A DNA stretch of 24,588 nucleotides from Rhodospirillaceae bacterium (GTDB lineage Bacteria; Pseudomonadota; Alphaproteobacteria; UBA8366). Each line of letters begins with the position of its first letter. Position 1 is the first letter of the stretch. The DNA lies in assembly GCA_002722095.1 (NCBI GenBank), contig PBKG01000017.1, positions 6,070-30,657 on the forward strand, read 5' to 3'. The notes beneath the pieces are model-generated. The model was not told the origin of the DNA, did no database searches, and saw only the letters and a program-made list of their open reading frames with translations. Positions 722-16,671 of the stretch are shown here, piece by piece. The position numbers and the translations under genes are program-made.

Positions 722-2209
722 CTATCCGTAGATCAGTGCGAAACGGCCCCGATGTCGGTCCTCATGGGATTTCGCAAGGGCGACTTGTACGTCTGGATCC
801 AACTCTTCACCAAGCGAATAAATAGCCATCTTGGCGAGCCCATTGAAGGTCTCTGCTTCGGTCCCGTCGCTGTTGAAAACGCGATTATAGGTTGGTCCGC
901 GTTCGAGCTCGGACAGCCATAATTTTGCGTTTTCGTCGAGCACGAGATCGAAGGCGACGAATTTAGGGCCGTAGGCAGCGCGTATGCCGTCCGGCGCATG
1001 GGCTCGGAAAAAGCCTTGAGTCGCCATGGCGTCGATCAATGTTGTGGCGATATTGCGCGCCTGGTTCCAAATTTCCGCAGGATCGAGACCTTCGCGTTCG
1101 AGAAAGAGGAAGAGTTGGTCGACGGTCCACCAGCCTTTCTCTCCCACATCGGCCGCGAGCTCAGCTTTTAGATCCGTGCGGTGTCTATCGGGGCGCGTAT
1201 GTTCCGTATGGACCGAAGTTAGGTGAAAGCTCTCGGGATCGGTCGTGTATTTGCGAAGCGCGATTTTCGCCGTTCCGCCTTGGAATAGATAGGCGCGGGG
1301 AGGGTCATAGGAGCTTACCAGTAGATAGAGCCTGAGCGCGAACTTACGTCCCTTAATAAGATAGGGATTGGCGATGTAGTCCTGCACGATCCAGTTGGGC
1401 TCGTCCTTGAGATGACTGATGTCGTTGATCAAATGGGTGCCGACCGAGGCGCTTAGGGTCGTCGATTTGACTATCCAGATGGGGTTCTCTCTGATTTTGG
1501 CAGATTGTTCGAGCACTTGCCTATCACTGGGCAAAATATAAGTCGCGGGCAAAAAGTCTGGCCAATTGCGTTCTGTCGCAGCGCACCATCCTCGCACTGA
1601 ATTCACGAATGCGTCCTTGTCGGCCCAAGCCTTCCATCCCGCGTAATCATATCCTTGATGAAATGTAACCAAGTCGAGGCCACTCTCGGGATACCTGCCG
1701 AATCCCTTCCGGATTTGGCGTGCGTGCTGTTCCGCCGTCGAGTGGTTCGCCCGGTCTCGTTCGGCGCCCATCAAACAATAAAGCAGACTCGCATTGGTCG
1801 GCGCACGCTTCAGCAATGGTTGGTAACGCGCGATTGCCTCGTCGGGATCGCCTTTCCGGTGGACCGTGAGCCCGCCAATTAATCCAGCTAAGATCGAATC
1901 CGCACCTGCGGCCTCGGCTGCTCGGTCATAATAGGTGAGGGCATCGTCCTGGCGGCCGAGTTCTCCGAAACAGATGCCCGCATTGAAAAGCGCCATATAG
2001 GCGCCGCCTTCGAGCGCATAACTTTTCTCGAACATCGCCGCCGCGTCTTCATGGCGATTAAGTGACTTATATATAGTTGCGAGGAAAAAGTGGCATTCCG
2101 CGTCGTTCGGATTGGACCGAGTCAATGCCTCCGCTGTCTCCATCGCCTCAAAAGGGCGGAATGGAAGCACATTCTCTCTAAGGTCTTCGATTTTTTCCGT
2201 TGTGCTCAT
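722..2209 (-). CDS. TPR protein with tubulin-tyrosine-ligase-like (TTL) ATP-grasp domain
   Basis: The 495-residue product has two parts. Residues about 10-165 are helical TPR-like repeats (for example the FNAGICFGELGRQDDALTYY stretch). Residues about 215-470 match the TTL family: IWIVK (K248), the VQDYIANPYLIKGRKFALRLY block at 275-295, and FDLVLDENAKLWLSELERGP at 420-439. TTL enzymes use ATP to ligate an amino acid to a protein carboxylate. The metal-binding motif, usually WLLEVNxxP, reads WLSELERGP here: E434 is kept, but the usual Asn is E436. The glycine-rich loop after K248 is also atypical (STTLSASVGTHL). The ATG start shares a base with the stop of the upstream fusion-protein gene (TAATG), so it is translationally coupled to the type I secretion genes. 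I infer a role in modifying the secreted substrate or secretion machinery; the substrate is unknown. No signal peptide is seen, so it is cytoplasmic. Confidence 0.8.
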   Translation of the reverse strand: MSTTEKIEDLRENVLPFRPFEAMETAEALTRSNPNDAECHFFLATIYKSLNRHEDAAAMFEKSYALEGGAYMALFNAGICFGELGRQDDALTYYDRAAEAAGADSILAGLIGGLTVHRKGDPDEAIARYQPLLKRAPTNASLLYCLMGAERDRANHSTAEQHARQIRKGFGRYPESGLDLVTFHQGYDYAGWKAWADKDAFVNSVRGWCAATERNWPDFLPATYILPSDRQVLEQSAKIRENPIWIVKSTTLSASVGTHLINDISHLKDEPNWIVQDYIANPYLIKGRKFALRLYLLVSSYDPPRAYLFQGGTAKIALRKYTTDPESFHLTSVHTEHTRPDRHRTDLKAELAADVGEKGWWTVDQLFLFLEREGLDPAEIWNQARNIATTLIDAMATQGFFRAHAPDGIRAAYGPKFVAFDLVLDENAKLWLSELERGPTYNRVFNSDGTEAETFNGLAKMAIYSLGEELDPDVQVALAKSHEDRHRGRFALIYG

Positions 2210-3627
2210 TATCGTTCGCGCAACGCCTCGGATTGATACCTTAACAGCGGGGCCATGACGAATTCGATGATGCGCCGTTTGCCGGTCTTGATTTCCACCG
2301 TGACTGCCATGCCTGGGGCGAGCGGTACTTCCTTGCCGCCGGCGAGGATCGTGCTCTTAGCCAGGGAAACCCGGCCCGCGTAAACAAGGCCAAGCTGCTC
2401 GTCCTGGATGGCGTCGCCGGAAAGATGCTTAAGTTTGCCGTCGATGGTGCCGTATTTGGTAAAGGGGAAACTCTCGACTTTAATTTCCGCTACCTGGCCG
2501 GCATGAACAAAGCCTTTGTCTTTGTTCAGCACCATCGCTTCCGCCTCGAGCCTGGTGTCTTTCGGTACCACGACCATCAACACTTGGGCTGGCTGAACGA
2601 CGCCGCCCACCGTGTGGATTTGCAGCTGCTGAACCCTGCCATCCACCGGAGCGGTCAATTGCTGCAGACGTTCGCGCTTTTCGGCGGCGCGGAGTTGAAG
2701 TTCGGCCGCGTTCATCCTATTGCGAGCCTCGACCATCTGAGACAGCGCTTCGCGCCGCGCGTCCGCGGAAAGTTGGTCACGCTGTTTCTTGGCTGAAATC
2801 ATTGCCGCTTCCGCTTCGACCGCGCGATGGCGTTGGATGATCAGATTTTGCTCCTGCTCGATCAGCGCTTGTTTGACTTCGAGCCATTGCCGCCTGGGGG
2901 CGTTGCCGGTTTTGATAAGTTTGCGAAGAGCTCTTTCCCGCTCGCGGATGAGTGGGATCGTGCCTTTAAGCTTGGCAATTTCGGCCAAAATAGCCGCGCG
3001 TTCCGCGACCCGGCGTGAGAATTCGGCGTCATACGCCGCCGCTTGCGCTTCGTGGGCCAGGAGGTCGGACTTTAGTTTTTCACGATGCATCCGCATCAGA
3101 TGATCCGGCGCGTCTTCGGGAGGCGCAAACTCCGCCACTTCGCCATCGAGTGCGCGCAAATTCGCTTCCAATCGTCGAAGTTCGGTGCGCGAGGCGATGA
3201 ATTCCCTAATCACCTGACCTTTGTCCACTTCGCTTTCGGTCGGATCGAGTTCGACCAGAAGGTCGCCTTTTTTCACCTCTTGTCCGTCGCGCACATGTAT
3301 TGCGCGAACGACACCGATTTCAAGCGGTTGGATCGATTGGAGGCCGCCCAAGGGCACGATCTTGCCTTGTGCGACCGCGACGATATCGACCTTTCCAACG
3401 ATCGCCCAAACAACGGCAATAACGAAAAAGGCGGATAGCGACAGGGCGATAGCCCGAGCGGCCGGTGAGGCGGGGCGTTCCATGACCTCGATCGCCGATG
3501 GCATGAAGGCTAGTTCATCCTCACCCCTCCGCCGGGCTTGCCGACGGGCCCACCATCCGGCGAGACCGGCTTTAGGCTTTTCGGGCTCCGCGGCTGCGAG
3601 CTGCATTTCAGGGCTATTCGGCGGCAT
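2209..3627 (-). CDS. Type I secretion membrane fusion protein (HlyD family)
   Basis: The 472-residue product bridges the inner-membrane exporter and an outer-membrane channel. It has a short cytoplasmic N-terminus rich in Arg, one membrane span at about residues 57-77, a first lipoyl half starting IVAVAQGKIVP, and a long periplasmic alpha-hairpin coiled coil at about 140-330. The second lipoyl half follows (LTAPVDGRVQQLQ), and then a beta-barrel region ending in the family pattern LAPGMAVTVEIKTGKRRIIEF. Length is typical of HlyD/PrtE-type proteins. I chose the ATG at 3627 because an AAGG lies upstream and the start overlaps the exporter stop by 14 bp. The frame stays open further upstream to 3807, but that part is antisense-like low-quality sequence inside the exporter gene. 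No TolC-like gene is in the window. Confidence 0.93.
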   Translation of the reverse strand: MPPNSPEMQLAAAEPEKPKAGLAGWWARRQARRRGEDELAFMPSAIEVMERPASPAARAIALSLSAFFVIAVVWAIVGKVDIVAVAQGKIVPLGGLQSIQPLEIGVVRAIHVRDGQEVKKGDLLVELDPTESEVDKGQVIREFIASRTELRRLEANLRALDGEVAEFAPPEDAPDHLMRMHREKLKSDLLAHEAQAAAYDAEFSRRVAERAAILAEIAKLKGTIPLIRERERALRKLIKTGNAPRRQWLEVKQALIEQEQNLIIQRHRAVEAEAAMISAKKQRDQLSADARREALSQMVEARNRMNAAELQLRAAEKRERLQQLTAPVDGRVQQLQIHTVGGVVQPAQVLMVVVPKDTRLEAEAMVLNKDKGFVHAGQVAEIKVESFPFTKYGTIDGKLKHLSGDAIQDEQLGLVYAGRVSLAKSTILAGGKEVPLAPGMAVTVEIKTGKRRIIEFVMAPLLRYQSEALRER

Positions 3628-5821
3628 CTTCGTTCGCCTTGTTGTCTGTCTTATCTCCGCTGGCCGTGCCCGACTGCAACGCGTGGAGCTTGGCATAACG
3701 CCCGCCTTTGGCGAGCAATTCGTCATGGCTGCCTTGTTCGACGATCTCGCCGGCCTCGACCGTGATGATCCTGTTCGCATCGCGCACCGCGGAGAGGCGA
3801 TGGGCAATGATGATCACGGTCCGACCCTGACAGATGGCGCGCATATTTTTTTGAATCGCGACTTCGGATTCGTAGTCGAGTGCGCTGGTGGCCTCGTCAA
3901 AAATCAAAATTCGCGGATTGGTGACAAGAGCGCGCGCGATGGCGATGCGCTGACGTTGTCCGCCGGAGACCGTGCTACCGCGCTCGCCGATTTCCGTGTC
4001 GTAGCCTTCCGGAAGTTCGAGAATGAAATCATGGGCGCCGGCGAGTTTTGCCGCCGCTACGACGCGTTCCATGGTCATACCCGGGTCCGACAGGGCGATA
4101 TTTTCTCGGACGGTGCGGTTGAAGAGTACATTTTCCTGAAGGACGACACCGATCTGGCGCCTGAGCCACGTGGTGTCGACCATGGCGAGATCGACACCAT
4201 CAACCAAAACCCGCCCGCTTTCGGGGACATAGAGCCTTTGTACCAGTTTGGTGAGCGTACTTTTACCCGATCCCGAGGGGCCGACGATGCCGATAACCTC
4301 ACCTTGGGTTATGCGGAGATCCACACGGCGCAAAACCTCCGGTGCGTCCGGGCGGTATCGAAAGGTGACGCCTTCAAAAGTCACTTGGCCTTTGATTTCG
4401 GGCAGTGTCGCTCGGTTGAGGTTTTGTCGCGGTTCGGTTGGCGTATTTAGGATATCGCCCAGTCTTTCGACCGAAATTCTCGCCTGCTGAAATTCCTGCC
4501 ACAAATTGGCAAGGCGGAGGATCGGGCCGATCACTCTTTGCGACAGCATGTTGAAGGCGACGAGCTGACCCACTGTGAGGTCGCCGCCCACGACCATGAG
4601 AGCGCCGAAATAGAGGGTGAGGGCGAGCGTAATCTTACTGATGAGTTGCGCGGTTTGCCCGGCGACATTGCCAAGATGGGTGGTTTTGAAGCTTGCACCC
4701 ACATAGCCCGCAAGCTGGTCTTCCCAGCGCCGCTGCATTTGCGGCTCGACGGCCATAGCCTTTAGGGTCTCGACCCCATTGATCGATTCCACGAGAAAAG
4801 CCTGGTTGACGGCACCGCGCTGGAACTTTTCTTCGAGGCGACGGCGCAACACCGGCGTCACCAACACGGAGAGCACGACGTAGAACGGGATCGATCCGAG
4901 CACGATCCAGGTCAGGGTCGGTGCGAAAATGTACATCACAATAAAAAAGACAAAGGTGAAGAACAGATCGATCACCAGCGTTAGCGACGAGCCGGTAATG
5001 AAATTTCGGATATTTTCCAACTCCCGAACCCGAGCGACGGATTCGCCTGTTCGGCGTGCCTGGAAATAGGCAAGGGGCAGCTTCAGGAGATGGTCGAAAA
5101 GTTTGGCGCCGAGTTCTACATCAACCCTATTGGTGGTGTGCGAGAAGACATATGTGCGTAGCAATCCGAGAAGGACTTCGAATACCGAAACCACGAGGAG
5201 GCCGAACACCAACACATCGAGTGTTGTGAGCCCTCGGTGGACCAGCACCTTGTCGATGACCACCATGAAAAAGAGCGGTGAGACCAAGGCGAAAATTTGC
5301 AAGAAGAACGAGGCGACGATGACTTCGGAAAAGATTCGTTTGTAGCGAAGCAGGACCGGGATAAACCAGGAAATATCGAATTTGCCGCCTTTGCCGAGGA
5401 TAGGAACCCGCCGGGTGACCAAAATGACCTCGCCGCTCCAAATTTCCTCGAATTCTTCTCGAGACAGGGTTTGGGGTTTGTTGATCGTCGGGTCTTGAAC
5501 CAGAATTTTATCTTCTGCGATTTGCCCGAGCACGATATAGGCGCCGTCTTTGCGTCGGCCGATTGCGGGGAGGCTGGTTTTACCGAGGCGCTCCCAGCTT
5601 GACGTGACCGAGCGCGATTTGAGGCCAAATTTTCGCGCTGCACGTAAAATGTCATCGGTTTCGAGTGCTTTGTCTGCTTCGCCGAACTCGTGGCGGATCG
5701 ATTCCACGTCGCCCGGCATGCCGAAAAACCGCAATAGCAGGACGAGGCAGGCCGCACCGCTGTCGATGGTACCGTCAGCGGGCGGTGTGGAATCTGCCGA
5801 AAGGTTTTCGGTTTCGCTCAA
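3614..5821 (-). CDS. Type I secretion ABC exporter (HlyB-like) with inactive C39-like domain
   Basis: This is an inner-membrane ATPase/permease of about 735 residues that drives export of an unfolded substrate. The N-terminal ~135 residues are a C39-peptidase-like domain. The catalytic Cys position is Ser (DSGAACL, S21) and the catalytic His position is Ala (DGAYIVL, A94). It should therefore bind substrate without cleaving a leader, as in RTX exporters. A type-1 exporter membrane domain with about six spans follows. The nucleotide-binding domain has Walker A GPSGSGKST (514-522), signature VSGGQRQR, Walker B ILIFDEA and H-loop IIIAHR, all intact. I prefer the TTG at 5821, which has GGGAGAG at a good distance. 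A TTG at 5854 would add 11 residues but lacks a ribosome site. It is the first gene of the operon and overlaps the fusion-protein gene. Confidence 0.93.
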   Translation of the reverse strand: MSETENLSADSTPPADGTIDSGAACLVLLLRFFGMPGDVESIRHEFGEADKALETDDILRAARKFGLKSRSVTSSWERLGKTSLPAIGRRKDGAYIVLGQIAEDKILVQDPTINKPQTLSREEFEEIWSGEVILVTRRVPILGKGGKFDISWFIPVLLRYKRIFSEVIVASFFLQIFALVSPLFFMVVIDKVLVHRGLTTLDVLVFGLLVVSVFEVLLGLLRTYVFSHTTNRVDVELGAKLFDHLLKLPLAYFQARRTGESVARVRELENIRNFITGSSLTLVIDLFFTFVFFIVMYIFAPTLTWIVLGSIPFYVVLSVLVTPVLRRRLEEKFQRGAVNQAFLVESINGVETLKAMAVEPQMQRRWEDQLAGYVGASFKTTHLGNVAGQTAQLISKITLALTLYFGALMVVGGDLTVGQLVAFNMLSQRVIGPILRLANLWQEFQQARISVERLGDILNTPTEPRQNLNRATLPEIKGQVTFEGVTFRYRPDAPEVLRRVDLRITQGEVIGIVGPSGSGKSTLTKLVQRLYVPESGRVLVDGVDLAMVDTTWLRRQIGVVLQENVLFNRTVRENIALSDPGMTMERVVAAAKLAGAHDFILELPEGYDTEIGERGSTVSGGQRQRIAIARALVTNPRILIFDEATSALDYESEVAIQKNMRAICQGRTVIIIAHRLSAVRDANRIITVEAGEIVEQGSHDELLAKGGRYAKLHALQSGTASGDKTDNKANEDAAE

Positions 5822-5893
5822 GCGAACTCTCCCGATCTTTGTGCGCGGGATCAAATAGGCTGATCGCGCCGCCGCTCGGATATCCTTTAAACT

Positions 5894-11942: not shown

Positions 11943-14900
11943 ATGCCGAGCAATATTATACAATATGCTTGGAAAAATTCTAAATTACAGCAAATATACC
12001 TTGTAGTATTAACGGTAGTATTTATGCCGTTATTATACTTAACATTTGAATTACCGAAAATAATTATTAATGACGCCATATCTATGGAGGCGTCTACTTT
12101 CCCTCGATCGCTTTTGTCTTTTGAATTCGATCAGATCGGCTACCTTCTTGTCCTGTGTTTCATTTTCCTGGGTCTCGTTCTGGCGAGTTTCGGGATGCTC
12201 TATTATATGAGCGTTTATAAGGGGGTGTTGTCGGAAGTTCTGCTTCGCCGGCTTCGTTTCGATCTCTACAAGCGAATTTTGCGGTTCCCGGTCAGCCATT
12301 TGCGCAAGGTAAATTCCGGCGAACTGGTCACCATGACGACCGCGGAAGTGGAACCGATCGGGCGTTATCTGGGCATCCTCTTCGCAGATCCGATTTTGAA
12401 TGCGGGCACCATGTTGACGGCGATGGTGTTTCTTTTCGCGCAGGACTGGATCTTGGGTCTGGCCGCGATCGCGTTGTTCCCGCTTCAGACGGTTATTATC
12501 CCGCGGCTCCAATTGAAATTGAATCAGGTCTCCCGGCGACGGGTCGTTTCTGTGCGTCGATTTGCCGGACAGGTCAACGAAACCCTAATGGGTGCGCGTG
12601 ACATTCACGCCAACGATACGGTCGAATTCGAGTTAGGCCGCACCGCGGAACGGCTCGGGAAGCTTTTCCGCATCCGCCGCGAAATGTATCACCGGGAAAA
12701 TTTCATCAAGTTTCTAAATGCGCTGATGACGCAGATCACGCCGTTCTTCTTCTATGCGATCGGCGGCTGGTTGGTGATCGCCGGCGACTTGACGCTGGGC
12801 GCGCTCGTCGCAGTCATTGGTGCCTATAAGGAGACCGTGCGGCCCTGGACCAAACTGATCGAAAACTATCAGAAGCATGAAGAAAACAAGGTCAAATATC
12901 AGACGCTGGTCGAAAACTTCAACGTGGAGACGGACGAAGAATCGACCAAGACCGGTACTGCCTCAGAAGCGGCCAATTTAGAGATCAATGGACCGTTGTC
13001 GGTGTCCAATGTGACCGTTAGCGATGGCGATGCGCGATTGTTGGAAGAAGTGAGCTTTGAATCCGATTTGCCGGGACAGATTGCGATCGTGGGGCCTGCG
13101 GGATCGGGCAAGGTCGAACTTGCGGAGTTGTTTTGCCAACTCCGCTACCCGACAGCAGGTGGCATTTGTTTTGGCGATTTTGCCCTAGGCGATCTCGGTC
13201 GTGGCGATATTGGCCGGATCGTCGGATATGCAGATCACGATGCGCATGTGTTTACCGGCAGTTGGCGTGACAATCTCTATTACGGCCTCAAACATCGTCC
13301 GGTCGCCGAGCGCGACTATGACGGGTCCGAACTGAAGGAGCGTGAAAAATGGGTGTCTGAGGCGGAGGCCGCTGGAAACCCAAGCCATGACATGGAGGCC
13401 GATTGGATCGATTATGGCCGCCTTGGCATTACGGGCCCGGATGAATTGGAGCGCGAGGCCTTAGCTATCGTAAAGAAGGTGGGCCTTGAGGAAGATTTGT
13501 TCCAGCGCGGCCTATCGCAACTGGTGCGGCCTGAGGACAAGCCAGAAACGGCGGTTAAAATACTCGAAGCGCGGCACTTATTCGCCGAACGTTTGGCGAA
13601 AACCGATTTTCCTGGTGCGGCCGAATTATTCAGCGTCGACGGTTACAACACTAATGCGACGTTATCGGAAAATTTCCTGTTCGGGCGCCATAGAGATGAG
13701 ACGTTCGATGTCTATCATCTCGGCAAGAACGAGTACGTCCTAAACATACTTCGCGAGATCGGCCTATATGATTGTCTGCTCGATATCGGGCGGCGCGCGA
13801 CGATGCATTTGCTCGATATGTTTGGCGACATGGCGGCTGGCGACCAGCGCATTTCGCAGCTCAGCCTGATCGGGTCGGACGATCTTCCGAAATACGAATC
13901 CCTGATGCGTAAAATCGATAGCGACGGGATGCATACACTCGACGACGACGAAAAGAACATGCTGTTCTCGATAGCCTTCATGCTTGCGCCCGCGCATCAG
14001 CGGTTCGGTCTTATCGATGCGCCGATCCAGGGGATGGTGATCGAGGCGCGCAGGAAGTTTCTAGACGGATTGCCGGACGACCTGCGCCCGAAATTGGAAG
14101 TGTTCGATTCCGACGCGGTATGCGGCGGCATCACCGTACAGTGTAATTTGCTCTATGGCCGAATTGCCCAGCGCCGCCATCGCGCCAAGGTCAATAATTT
14201 GATGTCGGAAGTGGTCGGTGAGATCGGGTTGCGCGAAGAAATTATCCGCCTCGGCCTCGATTCCGATGTGGGCGAGGCAGGGTCGCGGCTGTCTCCTGGA
14301 CAACGCCAGAAACTTGCGCTTGGCCGAAGCCTAATCAAGAAACCCGACCTGCTGGTAGTCAACGAAGCGCTTACGGCGCTTGATGCGGAAGAGCAGTCGA
14401 CTATCCGTAGGGAAGTCGTGACGACCATGGCAGAGGGTGCATTGATTTGGATCGATCGCGAAGACCAGGATGTCTCGGAATTCGATCAGGTGATCCTGAT
14501 GAAAGGCGGGCGTGTCGTCGAGCAACGCCAACGCGACGGCACCATGCTGCAGGCAGCGGAAACGACCGTCCCCAAGGCTGCTGAGGTCGGTCTCGAAGAC
14601 GAAATCAATGTGCTGCGGTCGGTACCTTTATTGGCCGGCCTTGCGCCGGAAACATTGAAGCTGGTGGCTTTTTCGAGCGAGCGGCACAATTTCGATCCCG
14701 ACGAGTACGTTTTTAAATCCGGCGACAAGAGCAACGGTGCCTATATCGTCCTGTCGGGTCAGATGGAGACAAGCGTCGAAGTCAACGGGTCGAAGCTGGT
14801 CATTGGGACGGTTGAAGTTGGCGATATTGTCGGTGAGGTGGGTGTGTTGTCCAACGTAGCACGTACCGCTTCCGTTGCCGCTACCGATGGCGGCGCGTCC

Positions 14901-15038
14901 GCCTTGTTGCTGACGCGCGACGTGTTCACCAATCTCATCGACAGCGACAAGAGCGTCAATGAGAAGGTGATCGAGCTTTTGTCGGAACGGTTGGCCTCGA
15001 CGATCCTCGAATTGGAGAAAACGCGCCAAGAGGCTTGA
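11943..15038 (+). CDS. Degenerate ABC-exporter-like protein with triplicated NBD segment and C-terminal cNMP-binding domain
   Basis: The 1031-residue inner-membrane protein starts with a type-1 ABC exporter membrane domain (about 15-320). Its nucleotide-binding domain is altered. Walker A is GPAGSGKV (384-391), with Val for Ser/Thr; Walker B is LLVVNEA, with N807 for Asp; the H-loop His is D838 (IDR). The signature LSPGQRQ (783-789) and catalytic E808 remain. Between Walker A and the signature, the Q-loop/helical segment recurs three times: WRDNLYYG (441-448), LSENFLFG (574-581) and VQCNLLYG (732-739), each followed by a [VI]GL helix (514, 607, 762). Residues about 891-1025 are a cyclic-nucleotide-binding domain with GEVGVLSNVARTASV (964-978), keeping the Glu and Arg that contact cNMP. 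ATP hydrolysis is probably impaired; substrate unknown. The start has GAGGAG upstream. The first 135 bp are about 28% GC, unlike the rest. Confidence 0.85.
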   Translation: MPSNIIQYAWKNSKLQQIYLVVLTVVFMPLLYLTFELPKIIINDAISMEASTFPRSLLSFEFDQIGYLLVLCFIFLGLVLASFGMLYYMSVYKGVLSEVLLRRLRFDLYKRILRFPVSHLRKVNSGELVTMTTAEVEPIGRYLGILFADPILNAGTMLTAMVFLFAQDWILGLAAIALFPLQTVIIPRLQLKLNQVSRRRVVSVRRFAGQVNETLMGARDIHANDTVEFELGRTAERLGKLFRIRREMYHRENFIKFLNALMTQITPFFFYAIGGWLVIAGDLTLGALVAVIGAYKETVRPWTKLIENYQKHEENKVKYQTLVENFNVETDEESTKTGTASEAANLEINGPLSVSNVTVSDGDARLLEEVSFESDLPGQIAIVGPAGSGKVELAELFCQLRYPTAGGICFGDFALGDLGRGDIGRIVGYADHDAHVFTGSWRDNLYYGLKHRPVAERDYDGSELKEREKWVSEAEAAGNPSHDMEADWIDYGRLGITGPDELEREALAIVKKVGLEEDLFQRGLSQLVRPEDKPETAVKILEARHLFAERLAKTDFPGAAELFSVDGYNTNATLSENFLFGRHRDETFDVYHLGKNEYVLNILREIGLYDCLLDIGRRATMHLLDMFGDMAAGDQRISQLSLIGSDDLPKYESLMRKIDSDGMHTLDDDEKNMLFSIAFMLAPAHQRFGLIDAPIQGMVIEARRKFLDGLPDDLRPKLEVFDSDAVCGGITVQCNLLYGRIAQRRHRAKVNNLMSEVVGEIGLREEIIRLGLDSDVGEAGSRLSPGQRQKLALGRSLIKKPDLLVVNEALTALDAEEQSTIRREVVTTMAEGALIWIDREDQDVSEFDQVILMKGGRVVEQRQRDGTMLQAAETTVPKAAEVGLEDEINVLRSVPLLAGLAPETLKLVAFSSERHNFDPDEYVFKSGDKSNGAYIVLSGQMETSVEVNGSKLVIGTVEVGDIVGEVGVLSNVARTASVAATDGGASALLLTRDVFTNLIDSDKSVNEKVIELLSERLASTILELEKTRQEA

Positions 15039-15069: not shown

Positions 15070-16671
15070 ATGAAAGTGCCGCCGACACCGCTGGCCAATA
15101 GCTTCGCCGAGGCCGCTCTGGCCGAAGTTCCGAAGCTGTTGATGCTGCAGGATCGCAATCCTCATAGCCCCACCTACGGCTGCTTCGACCGGAATTATTG
15201 GCAATATCGCCGCACCGATTTCCCAACCGGCATGGCGCAAGAATTCGTTTATCCCCTCGCGTTGGCCTATCGGCTGGAAGCCGAAAGCAATGCCTATCGA
15301 GGGGATCCGGCGTTAAAGGATTGGATCGAGGCCGGCATACGCTTTGCCGCCTTAAGTTCCCATCGGGACGGCGCGTGCGACGATTTTTTCCCGTTCGAGC
15401 GCGCGTCCGGTGCCGCCGCATTTTCGTTGCTGGGATGCATGCAGGCTTACGATTTGCTCGATCTCGACGATCCCGAATTGGAATCCTTCTTTGCAACGCG
15501 CGGACGTTGGCTCGCGGCGCACCAGGAAAGCGGTCAGCTCAGCAACCACGAGGCGCTCATCGTTTATTGCCTCTATCTGCTATGGACACGCTTCGGCGTG
15601 GACGATCTTGAGAGCGCGTATCGGGCGCGTCTGGAACGTCTTTTATCTTGGCAAGATGAAGAGGGTTGGTTTCAGGAATACGAAGGGTGCGATCTCGGGT
15701 ACCAGACGCTCACCATCGGTTTGCTGGCGCAGCTCTACGAGGCTTCGGGCGAAGAATCCCTGCGCCAGCCTCTGGAACGCGCCATTTCCATGACGGCGTC
15801 GTTTATGCACCCCGACGGCAGCCTTGGGGGGGAGGTTTCGAGCCGCAATACCTACAATTATTTCCCCCACGGTTTCGAGTTGGCCGGCAAATGGTTTCCC
15901 GCGGCGCTCGCACTCAATGACCGCTTTGGGCAGGCACTCCAATCCGGACGTGCACCCTGCTATTCCGACGACCACATGGTGGCGCACCACCTCTGGAGCT
16001 ATTTGCTTGCGGCGGCGAATTGTTTGACCGAGCGTGATGGCGACACCGAGGCGTCACCGTCGCAAATTCATTTTCCCGGTGCTGGGCTTTTGGCGGTACG
16101 TGATGGCGATCAGGACCTCTTTGTCGCGTTGAACAAGGGCGGCGTCTTCAAACTCTTCCGCGACGGCGATCTGGTTTTTTCCGATACCCAGCTCTCTTTC
16201 AAGCTGGCCGATGGGCGAACCGCTGTTTGTCACATGATCGACGAGTATGACATCGACATCGGCGATGGGGTGCTGACGGTTTCCGGGCGCGCGGGGTTCG
16301 CGAAACAGAAAGTCATGCGGCCGGTCGACAACCTTCTATTGCGCGGTTTCATGTTTGTCTTCGGCAGATTCTTTCCGACACTGGTTCGTAAATTGTTGCA
16401 GCGGCTATTAATCACCGATAAACGTCCGGCCCCTTTCGAGTTCTCGCGCCGGTTAGAGTGGGGCGGGGAGAATTTTACGGTGCAAGACGAGGTTAAATCC
16501 GACCGCTGGGCGGATGTGGTGTCCGCCGGCATTAGCGGGCATCAGACTTCTATCTCAGTGGTTCAGAGCCGGCCTTATCACGAGAGCCAGCACCAAGCCT
16601 GGTTCGATGTTACCGATCAAGTGAAGCAATTGGACGCGGGCGAGCCGTTTAAAATCGAACGAAGCTACTAG
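15070..16671 (+). CDS. Predicted alpha-toroid/beta-sandwich protein, polysaccharide-lyase-like
   Basis: The 533-residue product was not firmly assigned to a family. Residues about 1-325 are helix pairs with aromatic and acidic loops typical of an (alpha/alpha) toroid: YPLALAYRL, DGACDDFFPFERASGAAAF, SNHEALIVYCLYLLW, CDLGYQTLTIGLLAQLY and HPDGSLGGEVSSRNTYNYF. Residues about 335-430 look like beta-strands (LLAVRDGDQDLFVALN). This order resembles heparinase II/III-like and related polysaccharide lyases. Candidate catalytic residues are H160, Y262, Y264 and H267, by inference only. A hydrophobic-basic helix at about 424-447 is unusual. No signal peptide is seen, so it appears cytoplasmic, which is odd for a lyase. 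It starts 31 bp after the ABC-like gene and is probably co-transcribed with it. Confidence 0.65.
   Translation: MKVPPTPLANSFAEAALAEVPKLLMLQDRNPHSPTYGCFDRNYWQYRRTDFPTGMAQEFVYPLALAYRLEAESNAYRGDPALKDWIEAGIRFAALSSHRDGACDDFFPFERASGAAAFSLLGCMQAYDLLDLDDPELESFFATRGRWLAAHQESGQLSNHEALIVYCLYLLWTRFGVDDLESAYRARLERLLSWQDEEGWFQEYEGCDLGYQTLTIGLLAQLYEASGEESLRQPLERAISMTASFMHPDGSLGGEVSSRNTYNYFPHGFELAGKWFPAALALNDRFGQALQSGRAPCYSDDHMVAHHLWSYLLAAANCLTERDGDTEASPSQIHFPGAGLLAVRDGDQDLFVALNKGGVFKLFRDGDLVFSDTQLSFKLADGRTAVCHMIDEYDIDIGDGVLTVSGRAGFAKQKVMRPVDNLLLRGFMFVFGRFFPTLVRKLLQRLLITDKRPAPFEFSRRLEWGGENFTVQDEVKSDRWADVVSAGISGHQTSISVVQSRPYHESQHQAWFDVTDQVKQLDAGEPFKIERSY

Follow-up and report, generated by a model that had tools for sequence, protein, structure and literature searches.

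A probable pseudo-transporter, predicted to be a cNMP-responsive membrane regulator

In textbooks, ABC exporters are pumps driven by ATP. What, then, does an exporter-like protein do when the residues of its ATPase are changed and a cyclic-nucleotide (cNMP) type domain is joined to its end? This question is raised by a gene in the window, by which we mean the whole stretch of DNA that was analyzed (24,588 nucleotides from a Rhodospirillaceae bacterium). A sequence-only reading had described the product as an ABC-exporter-like protein with a broken ATPase, three copies of the Q-loop/helical segment and a cNMP sensor, and had left the choice between a cNMP-responsive membrane regulator and a slow, gated exporter. 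On our best reading of the sequences, the protein is predicted to be a pseudo-transporter turned cNMP-responsive membrane regulator.

Domain layout and ATPase residues

The open reading frame proposed for this gene is real, and a GAGGAG lies 8 nt 5' of its ATG. Its features, with residue numbers of the protein, are given below.

11943..15038, + strand: whole pseudo-ABC open reading frame, 1031 aa, with a C-terminal cNMP domain; relatives found by search
11955..12920, + strand: type IV exporter transmembrane domain, residues 5-326
13092..13115, + strand: Walker A GPAGSGKV, residues 384-391, Ser/Thr replaced by Val
13209..13601, + strand: module 1, residues 423-553, with Q-loop strand (Gln replaced by His432), WRDNLYYG, VGL helix and end helix with Arg544
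13602..14069, + strand: module 2, residues 554-709, with strand, LSENFLFG, IGL helix, extra helices 645-680 and end helix 693-708 with Arg703
14070..14336, + strand: module 3, residues 710-798, with strand, VQCNLLYG, IGL helix, signature LSPGQRQ (783-789) and signature helix with Arg795
14349..14366, + strand: Walker B LLVVNE, residues 803-808, Asp replaced by Asn807, catalytic Glu808 retained
14451..14462, + strand: H-loop site IDRE, residues 837-840, His replaced, aligned residue Arg839
14595..15002, + strand: cNMP-binding domain, about residues 885-1020 (PF00027, 7.9e-15)
14832-14864, + strand: cNMP phosphate cassette, Gly964, Glu965 and Arg974

The window protein has the PF00664 membrane domain and the exporter fold that are expected of an active type IV ABC exporter, and the best structural matches of its predicted model, in which parts of the membrane domain are of low confidence, include 3qf4, 6quz and TmrAB. 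Its nucleotide-binding domain (NBD) is interrupted by an insert of ~286 aa (residues 450-735). A CRP/PKA-type cNMP domain was recognized by its Pfam profile together with the cassette Glu and Arg, and the phosphate-pocket residues Glu965 and Arg974 are present as had been claimed. This domain is C-terminal, not N-terminal as in HetC-like PCAT, and Pfam revealed no C39 peptidase domain in the protein.

How damaged is the ATPase? The protein contains a single Walker A (GPAGSGKV) and a single signature (LSPGQRQ), in agreement with the sequence-only reading. V391, H432, P785, N807 and R839 stand where Ser/Thr, Gln, Gly, Asp and His would be expected, and Lys390 and Glu808 are retained. The replacements by Val391 in Walker A and by Asn807 in Walker B had both been called correctly, and so had the loss of the H-loop His; its position had not, because Arg839 rather than Asp838 lies opposite the His in an ungapped alignment with BmrA. 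Two further changes, those of the Q-loop Gln to His432 and of the first signature Gly to Pro785, had been overlooked. Of the residues expected of an active exporter at four sites (GK[ST] in Walker A, the Walker B Asp, the catalytic Glu and the H-loop His), the window protein has only Lys390 and Glu808, and in place of the canonical LSGGQ signature it has LSPGQ.

Is this damage peculiar to one protein? The comparison comprised 200 rows, of which 120 are database proteins and 80 come from loci; there are near-duplicates among them, and both sets were selected by similarity to the window protein or its alignment. Within these rows, Walker A GK[ST] was retained in 60, the Q-loop Gln in 83, the S.G of the signature in 14, the Walker B Asp in 23, the catalytic Glu in 154 and the H-loop His in 27, the latter being 27 of the 84 rows without a fused cNMP domain. 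The Walker A Lys was found in 156 rows and the D-loop Asp in 161. No homologue with normal Walker and H-loop residues emerged: 0/200 rows combined the GK[ST] of Walker A with the Walker B Asp, the catalytic Glu and the H-loop His, and the largest number of features retained was four of six, in 3 of the 200. The replacement residues themselves, whose conservation had been raised as a check, are not uniformly kept, with position 391 variable, position 807 Asn in 154/200 rows and Asp838 mostly restricted to the clade of the window protein (35 of the 39 rows in that clade). Ten more divergent members, taken for their weak matches, are 25-31% identical, so that their alignments are less certain; the P-loop Lys was found in none of the ten, and four had neither Lys nor Arg. 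The P-loop pattern is gone from the divergent proteins L122-L126, which carry a fused cNMP domain.

As far as these alignments reveal, damage to the ATPase is a trait of the family. The Lys in 156 of 200 rows means that nucleotide binding may persist in many members, and the joint retention of the catalytic Glu, Walker A Lys and D-loop Asp suggests that such binding, perhaps with slow hydrolysis, still matters in many of them.

Triplication of the Q-loop/helical module

What is the material that separates Walker A from the signature? The three motifs reported from this region, WRDNLYYG (441), LSENFLFG (574) and VQCNLLYG (732), are all present, and [VI]GL helices follow them at 513, 606 and 761. 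Comparison of the modules as hhalign profiles gave repeat scores of 39.6, 40.3 and 78.3, which are two to four times the top control value (control maxima: column-shuffled, 19.7, n = 60; reversed, 16.2, n = 3; other segments, 18.4, n = 21). The proposal of three Q-loop/helical copies is thus supported above chance. Asn, Gly, Gly and Arg positions are near-invariant in every one of the three modules across the 200 rows, and the three module Arg positions were Arg in 29 of 30 cells across the ten divergent members.

The ends of the modules required a revision. Module 1 too has an end helix of the signature-helix kind (534-553), overlooked by the sequence-only reading, in which Arg544 is Arg in 200/200 rows; in the end helix of module 2 (693-708), Arg703 is Arg in 199/200. 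By profile, the equivalence of the end helices of modules 1 and 2 with that of module 3 fell below significance. A second-look structural alignment reaches residue 708, so that helix 693-708 falls where the signature helix would lie. This helix takes the place that had been given to MLFSIAFMLAP (673) and FGLIDAP (688), and we reject these two stretches as a faded signature/Walker B pair.

When the insert was folded alone, a second-look fold alignment put ABC NBDs first, with low Z; Foldseek by itself returned no significant fold match for the model, and sequence searches with residues 450-735 gave neither a PDB match nor a consistent match in Pfam. The profile search did not reveal an unrelated domain at 450-730. 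Judged by the profiles, the insert shares homology with the Q-loop/helical parts of the NBD on either side of it. It measures 281-326 aa and is present in all 80 loci kept.

Conserved parts, gene neighborhood and spread of the family

Which parts of the protein does the family keep? The membrane domain averaged 55% pairwise identity, compared to 38% for the core NBD (RecA core), and it was the more conserved of the two in 99.5% of about 1500 sampled pairs. As a control, we used the window's own C39-type secretion (T1SS) ABC exporter and 117 homologues, 3 of the 120 listed having been excluded as copies or pieces of it. The corresponding values were 80.4 versus 80.5%, with the membrane domain higher in 51% of pairs, although only the ratios can be compared, given that the control proteins are closer to one another than are those of the pseudo-ABC family. 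The seven catalytic positions were intact in 118/118 control proteins.

The cNMP pocket is conserved as well. In the 116 rows with a fused domain, the pocket Gly was found in 116, the Glu in 114 and the Arg in 112; in the fused domains of L122-L126, the Arg was present in 5/5 and the Glu in 3/5, with Asp in the other 2. Nine of the 80 locus proteins carry a fused cNMP domain. A separate cNMP gene lies 3' of the main gene in 56 of the 80 loci, with a spacing from 70 nt of overlap to 109 nt downstream, and three further cNMP genes lie elsewhere within their loci; 56 of these 59 separate genes match the pocket pattern. The Pfam architectures among the 120 relatives listed were membrane plus NBD, the same with cNMP, and the same with cNMP and GGDEF. 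Among the fused rows, the 47 longest (at least 1140 aa) are nearly all labelled GGDEF, and a test for diguanylate cyclase found the GG[DE]EF motif in 0/47 of their aligned C-terminal domains. The nearest relatives (P0002-P0006) are 61-74% identical, and most of the 120 listed are unnamed in annotation. The names in use include "ABC-type multidrug transport system," "putative ABC transport system ATP-binding protein," "cyclic nucleotide-binding domain-containing protein" and "diguanylate cyclase," of which those referring to transport and cyclase are probably misleading.

Can the membrane domain occur without the NBD? A whole-genome search revealed frames matching residues 1-334 only, and five loci (L115, L116, L117, L119 and L120) contain membrane-domain-only open reading frames of 345-413 aa. 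Pfam found no NBD in any of the five, nor any family match at all in L115, and an NBD query against all open reading frames of these loci gave no match. Their best matches within the pseudo-ABC family were at 51.5% (L116), 47% (L115), 46% (L117), 36% (L119) and 33% (L120), compared to only short or weak matches with the secretion-type control. L116 occupies the usual place of the main gene in a glycosyltransferase cluster, beside two GT28 genes, two GT4 genes and a PDA-type gene, and its genome, which may be incomplete, gave no match to the insert. L115 and L117 lie amid apparent metal-resistance genes, and their genomes also encode a full-length member. These relatives could have acquired other functions.

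The neighborhood of the family was surveyed in 80 loci, retained out of 553 relatives, which extend at most 8 kb to either side, or less where the contig is short; 55 of the 80 had 4 kb or more on both sides. Neighbor genes were sought by tblastn with the genes of one locus (L009), and related queries may match one and the same gene. By this measure, a first GT28-type transferase and a first GT4 were each found in 62 loci, a second GT28 and a second GT4 in 51 and 50, and the histidine phosphatase, PDA-type and Methyltransf_17 genes in 41, 39 and 35, respectively. At least three of six genes (two GT28, two GT4, phosphatase and PDA) were present in 55 of the 80 loci and none in 14, some of which lie on short contigs. 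The weaker GT28 scored just below the Pfam curated cutoff, and the PDA-type gene has no Pfam match, "polysaccharide deacetylase" being an impression only. Apart from the main gene itself, the 80 loci yielded no type IV exporter membrane domain by tblastn. In the window, tblastn matched none of the genes of the glycosyltransferase cluster, only the protein's own cNMP domain, and the sole other exporter among the open reading frames scanned is the C39-type secretion ABC protein, with its own HlyD.

The insert was found in 131 of 385 genomes from the class of Sneathiella and in 31 of 398 from its phylum (genomes of unstated quality), as a single match in 125 of the 131 positive class genomes. The named loci are mainly from Alphaproteobacteria, among them Azospirillum soli (L033) and Tistrella mobilis (L040), with some records labelled Gamma- or Betaproteobacteria.

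Regulator or exporter, and known systems

How can these observations be brought together? Our favored explanation, which we consider probable, is that the window protein is a non-hydrolytic ("pseudo") ABC protein, nucleotide gated, with the membrane domain as output, the NBD as relay and the cNMP-type domain as input. The type IV exporter membrane domain would be the working output, and the NBD, enlarged by two extra Q-loop/helical modules, would serve as a structural relay. The likely input is the cNMP-type domain, which is fused in the window protein and in most loci examined is the product of the following gene. A small nucleotide would bind this domain (cAMP or cGMP is a first guess, and another nucleotide is possible), the ligand-bound domain would shift against the triple-module NBD dimer, and the membrane domain would thereby switch conformation, gating passage or contact with a partner. 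There would be no cycle of ATP hydrolysis, in the manner of CFTR or SUR, eukaryotic ABC proteins that serve as a gated channel or a regulator, rather than of MsbA. Dimer formation, absent hydrolysis, ligand binding and gating are steps that we infer, and for relatives within the glycosyltransferase cluster a link to glycan export or assembly may be added.

A family in which the membrane domain is most conserved, the cNMP pocket and the modules are kept and the ATPase is variously broken fits a conformational output under a nucleotide input. The regulator proposed from the window protein now rests on this family-wide pattern instead of one sequence, and of the two roles first offered it is the better; the slow, gated exporter is less likely, because the P-loop Lys is absent from all ten divergent members and one locus is reduced to the membrane domain. 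The absence of a glycosyltransferase cluster from the window counts against our explanation, as does the retention of the catalytic Glu, Walker A Lys and D-loop Asp in most rows.

Because the Lys and the Glu are often kept, the most serious rival is an exporter that is slow or driven by binding. Here an unusual but working NBD would bind ATP and hydrolyze it slowly by means of this Lys and Glu, with the extra modules and the cNMP domain regulating only the rate. The retained Walker A Lys, catalytic Glu, D-loop Asp and, in 27 rows, H-loop His speak for it, as do the glycosyltransferases that are its usual neighbors, whose product would call for an exporter. In HetC, a catalytic ATPase residue is reported to be required in vivo (PMC10986499), so a cNMP domain alone is no argument against a working ATPase. 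The scarcity of the Walker B Asp and of the signature S.G, the 0/200 rows with the full four-residue set, the divergent members without the P-loop Lys, the membrane-only L116 inside a glycosyltransferase cluster and the lower conservation of the NBD core compared to the membrane domain, unlike in the control exporter, make this reading unlikely.

There are well-known heterodimeric exporters in which one of the sites is degenerate (TM287/288, TAP1/2), and the presence of 3qf4, 6quz and TmrAB among the model's best matches would suit a degenerate half whose canonical partner, encoded elsewhere, provides the working ATP site. We regard this as more doubtful still, given that no other type IV exporter membrane domain accompanies the main gene in the 80 loci, that the one other scanned exporter of the window is C39-type with its own HlyD, and that the losses span Walker A, Walker B, signature and H-loop. 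Could the insert be an unrelated domain with chance repeats, or the gene be decaying or misassembled? The want of a PDB sequence match, a consistent Pfam match or a significant stand-alone Foldseek match for the insert would allow it. This very improbable account is already contradicted by repeat scores far above the controls, by the near-invariant Asn, Gly, Gly and Arg of the three modules, by the insert in every locus and by its occurrence in 131 of 385 class genomes, as a single match in 125 of these.

Under the non-hydrolytic reading, a bolder generalization can be put forward tentatively, at somewhat less than even chances: a bacterial class of the ABC fold without any ATP hydrolysis, nucleotide gated, with three serial helical subdomains as a new NBD topology, found in about a third of sampled alphaproteobacterial species, linked in most loci examined to a single, so far unstudied glycosyltransferase cluster in which the bare membrane domain can substitute for the entire protein. 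The family is common and apparently undescribed, our search having found no paper on it in the literature library covered. A widespread bacterial family that retains the membrane domain and the cNMP-type pocket but not the ATPase would make it possible to ask what the exporter fold does without hydrolysis, and in small proteins; serial triplication of an NBD helical subdomain is unusual protein evolution; and the linked glycosyltransferase cluster is a source of testable phenotype.

How does the family compare with known systems? The likeness to CFTR and SUR would be one of working only, drawn from anatomy; the window protein is a single half-molecule, and neither CFTR nor SUR is known to have a triple module. 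With TM287/288 and TAP it shares a degenerate ATP site in an exporter fold, but it has no canonical partner nearby in the 80 loci and its losses are wider. With BmrA, MsbA, TmrAB and Sav1866 it shares the type IV membrane domain and exporter fold; unlike in these exporters, the catalytic set is lost family-wide, the ~286-aa insert forms two extra Q-loop/helical modules, and a cNMP domain is either part of the protein or, in most loci examined, supplied by the gene that follows. The Gly-Glu and Arg of the phosphate cassette are those of CRP/PKA-type domains (PF00027), which are joined to a DNA-binding domain, kinase or channel, whereas here the domain is fused to or beside a pseudo-ABC protein. 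HetC of Nostoc PCC 7120, the nearest described case that we found, is an ABC exporter with an N-terminal cNMP domain, which bound ppGpp and was not protected by cAMP, and a C39 peptidase domain (PMC10986499). The window protein differs from HetC as described there in its C-terminal cNMP domain, lack of a peptidase match, damaged ATPase and triple module. The pairing of exporter and cNMP sensor is thus already known from HetC, with a working ATPase there; new, as far as we have seen, are the tripling of the helical module in series and the loss of ATPase residues throughout a family that keeps the cNMP pocket.

Other genes in the window

Two features of the window stand out besides the pseudo-ABC gene.

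722-5854, minus strand: type I secretion set
15070-16671, plus strand: gene for a 533-aa protein, directly 3' of the pseudo-ABC ORF

The secretion set, which looks intact, comprises a C39-type ABC exporter and an HlyD protein, together with a TPR protein that carries a tubulin-tyrosine-ligase domain. As listed, the minus-strand ORFs for HlyD (2209-3807) and the ABC exporter (3614-5854) overlap by 194 nt; the true start of the HlyD ORF is probably a codon internal to the listed one. The 533-aa protein had no Pfam match and is rare (4 of 385 genomes drawn from the class of Sneathiella). Our impression is of a resemblance to alpha/alpha-toroid polysaccharide-active enzymes.

Relatives with altered C-terminal or nucleotide-binding domains

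A third C-terminal domain was found in P0037, P0044, P0060 and 44 further aligned relatives, and also at locus L015. Pfam labels it GGDEF in nearly all of these rows, and the GGDEF motif is kept in 0 of the 47. Divergent members (L122 to L126, 976-1053 aa) have lost the Walker A pattern (no GK[ST]), yet the Arg of their cNMP pocket persists, as do most motifs of the modules. A single genome holds L122, L123 and L124, so that divergent members reach three per genome.

The glycosyltransferase cluster and membrane-domain-only relatives

The same cluster genes recur in most of the relatives' loci, as in this example.

L009:1544-7732: glycosyltransferase cluster

This conserved cluster, apparently undescribed, contains two GT28-type and two GT4 glycosyltransferases, a histidine phosphatase and a polysaccharide-deacetylase-like gene. 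A Methyltransf_17 gene is frequently present too, as is an oligopeptide-type ABC importer. Five relatives (345-413 aa) consist of the membrane domain only, without the NBD.

L115:6868-8094: NBD-less relative
L116:2194-3231: NBD-less relative
L117:7540-8781: NBD-less relative
L119:8068-9111: NBD-less relative
L120:7045-8247: NBD-less relative

The neighbors of the L115 and L117 genes look like metal or copper handling genes. At L116, the membrane-domain-only gene stands within the glycosyltransferase cluster in place of the full pseudo-ABC protein.
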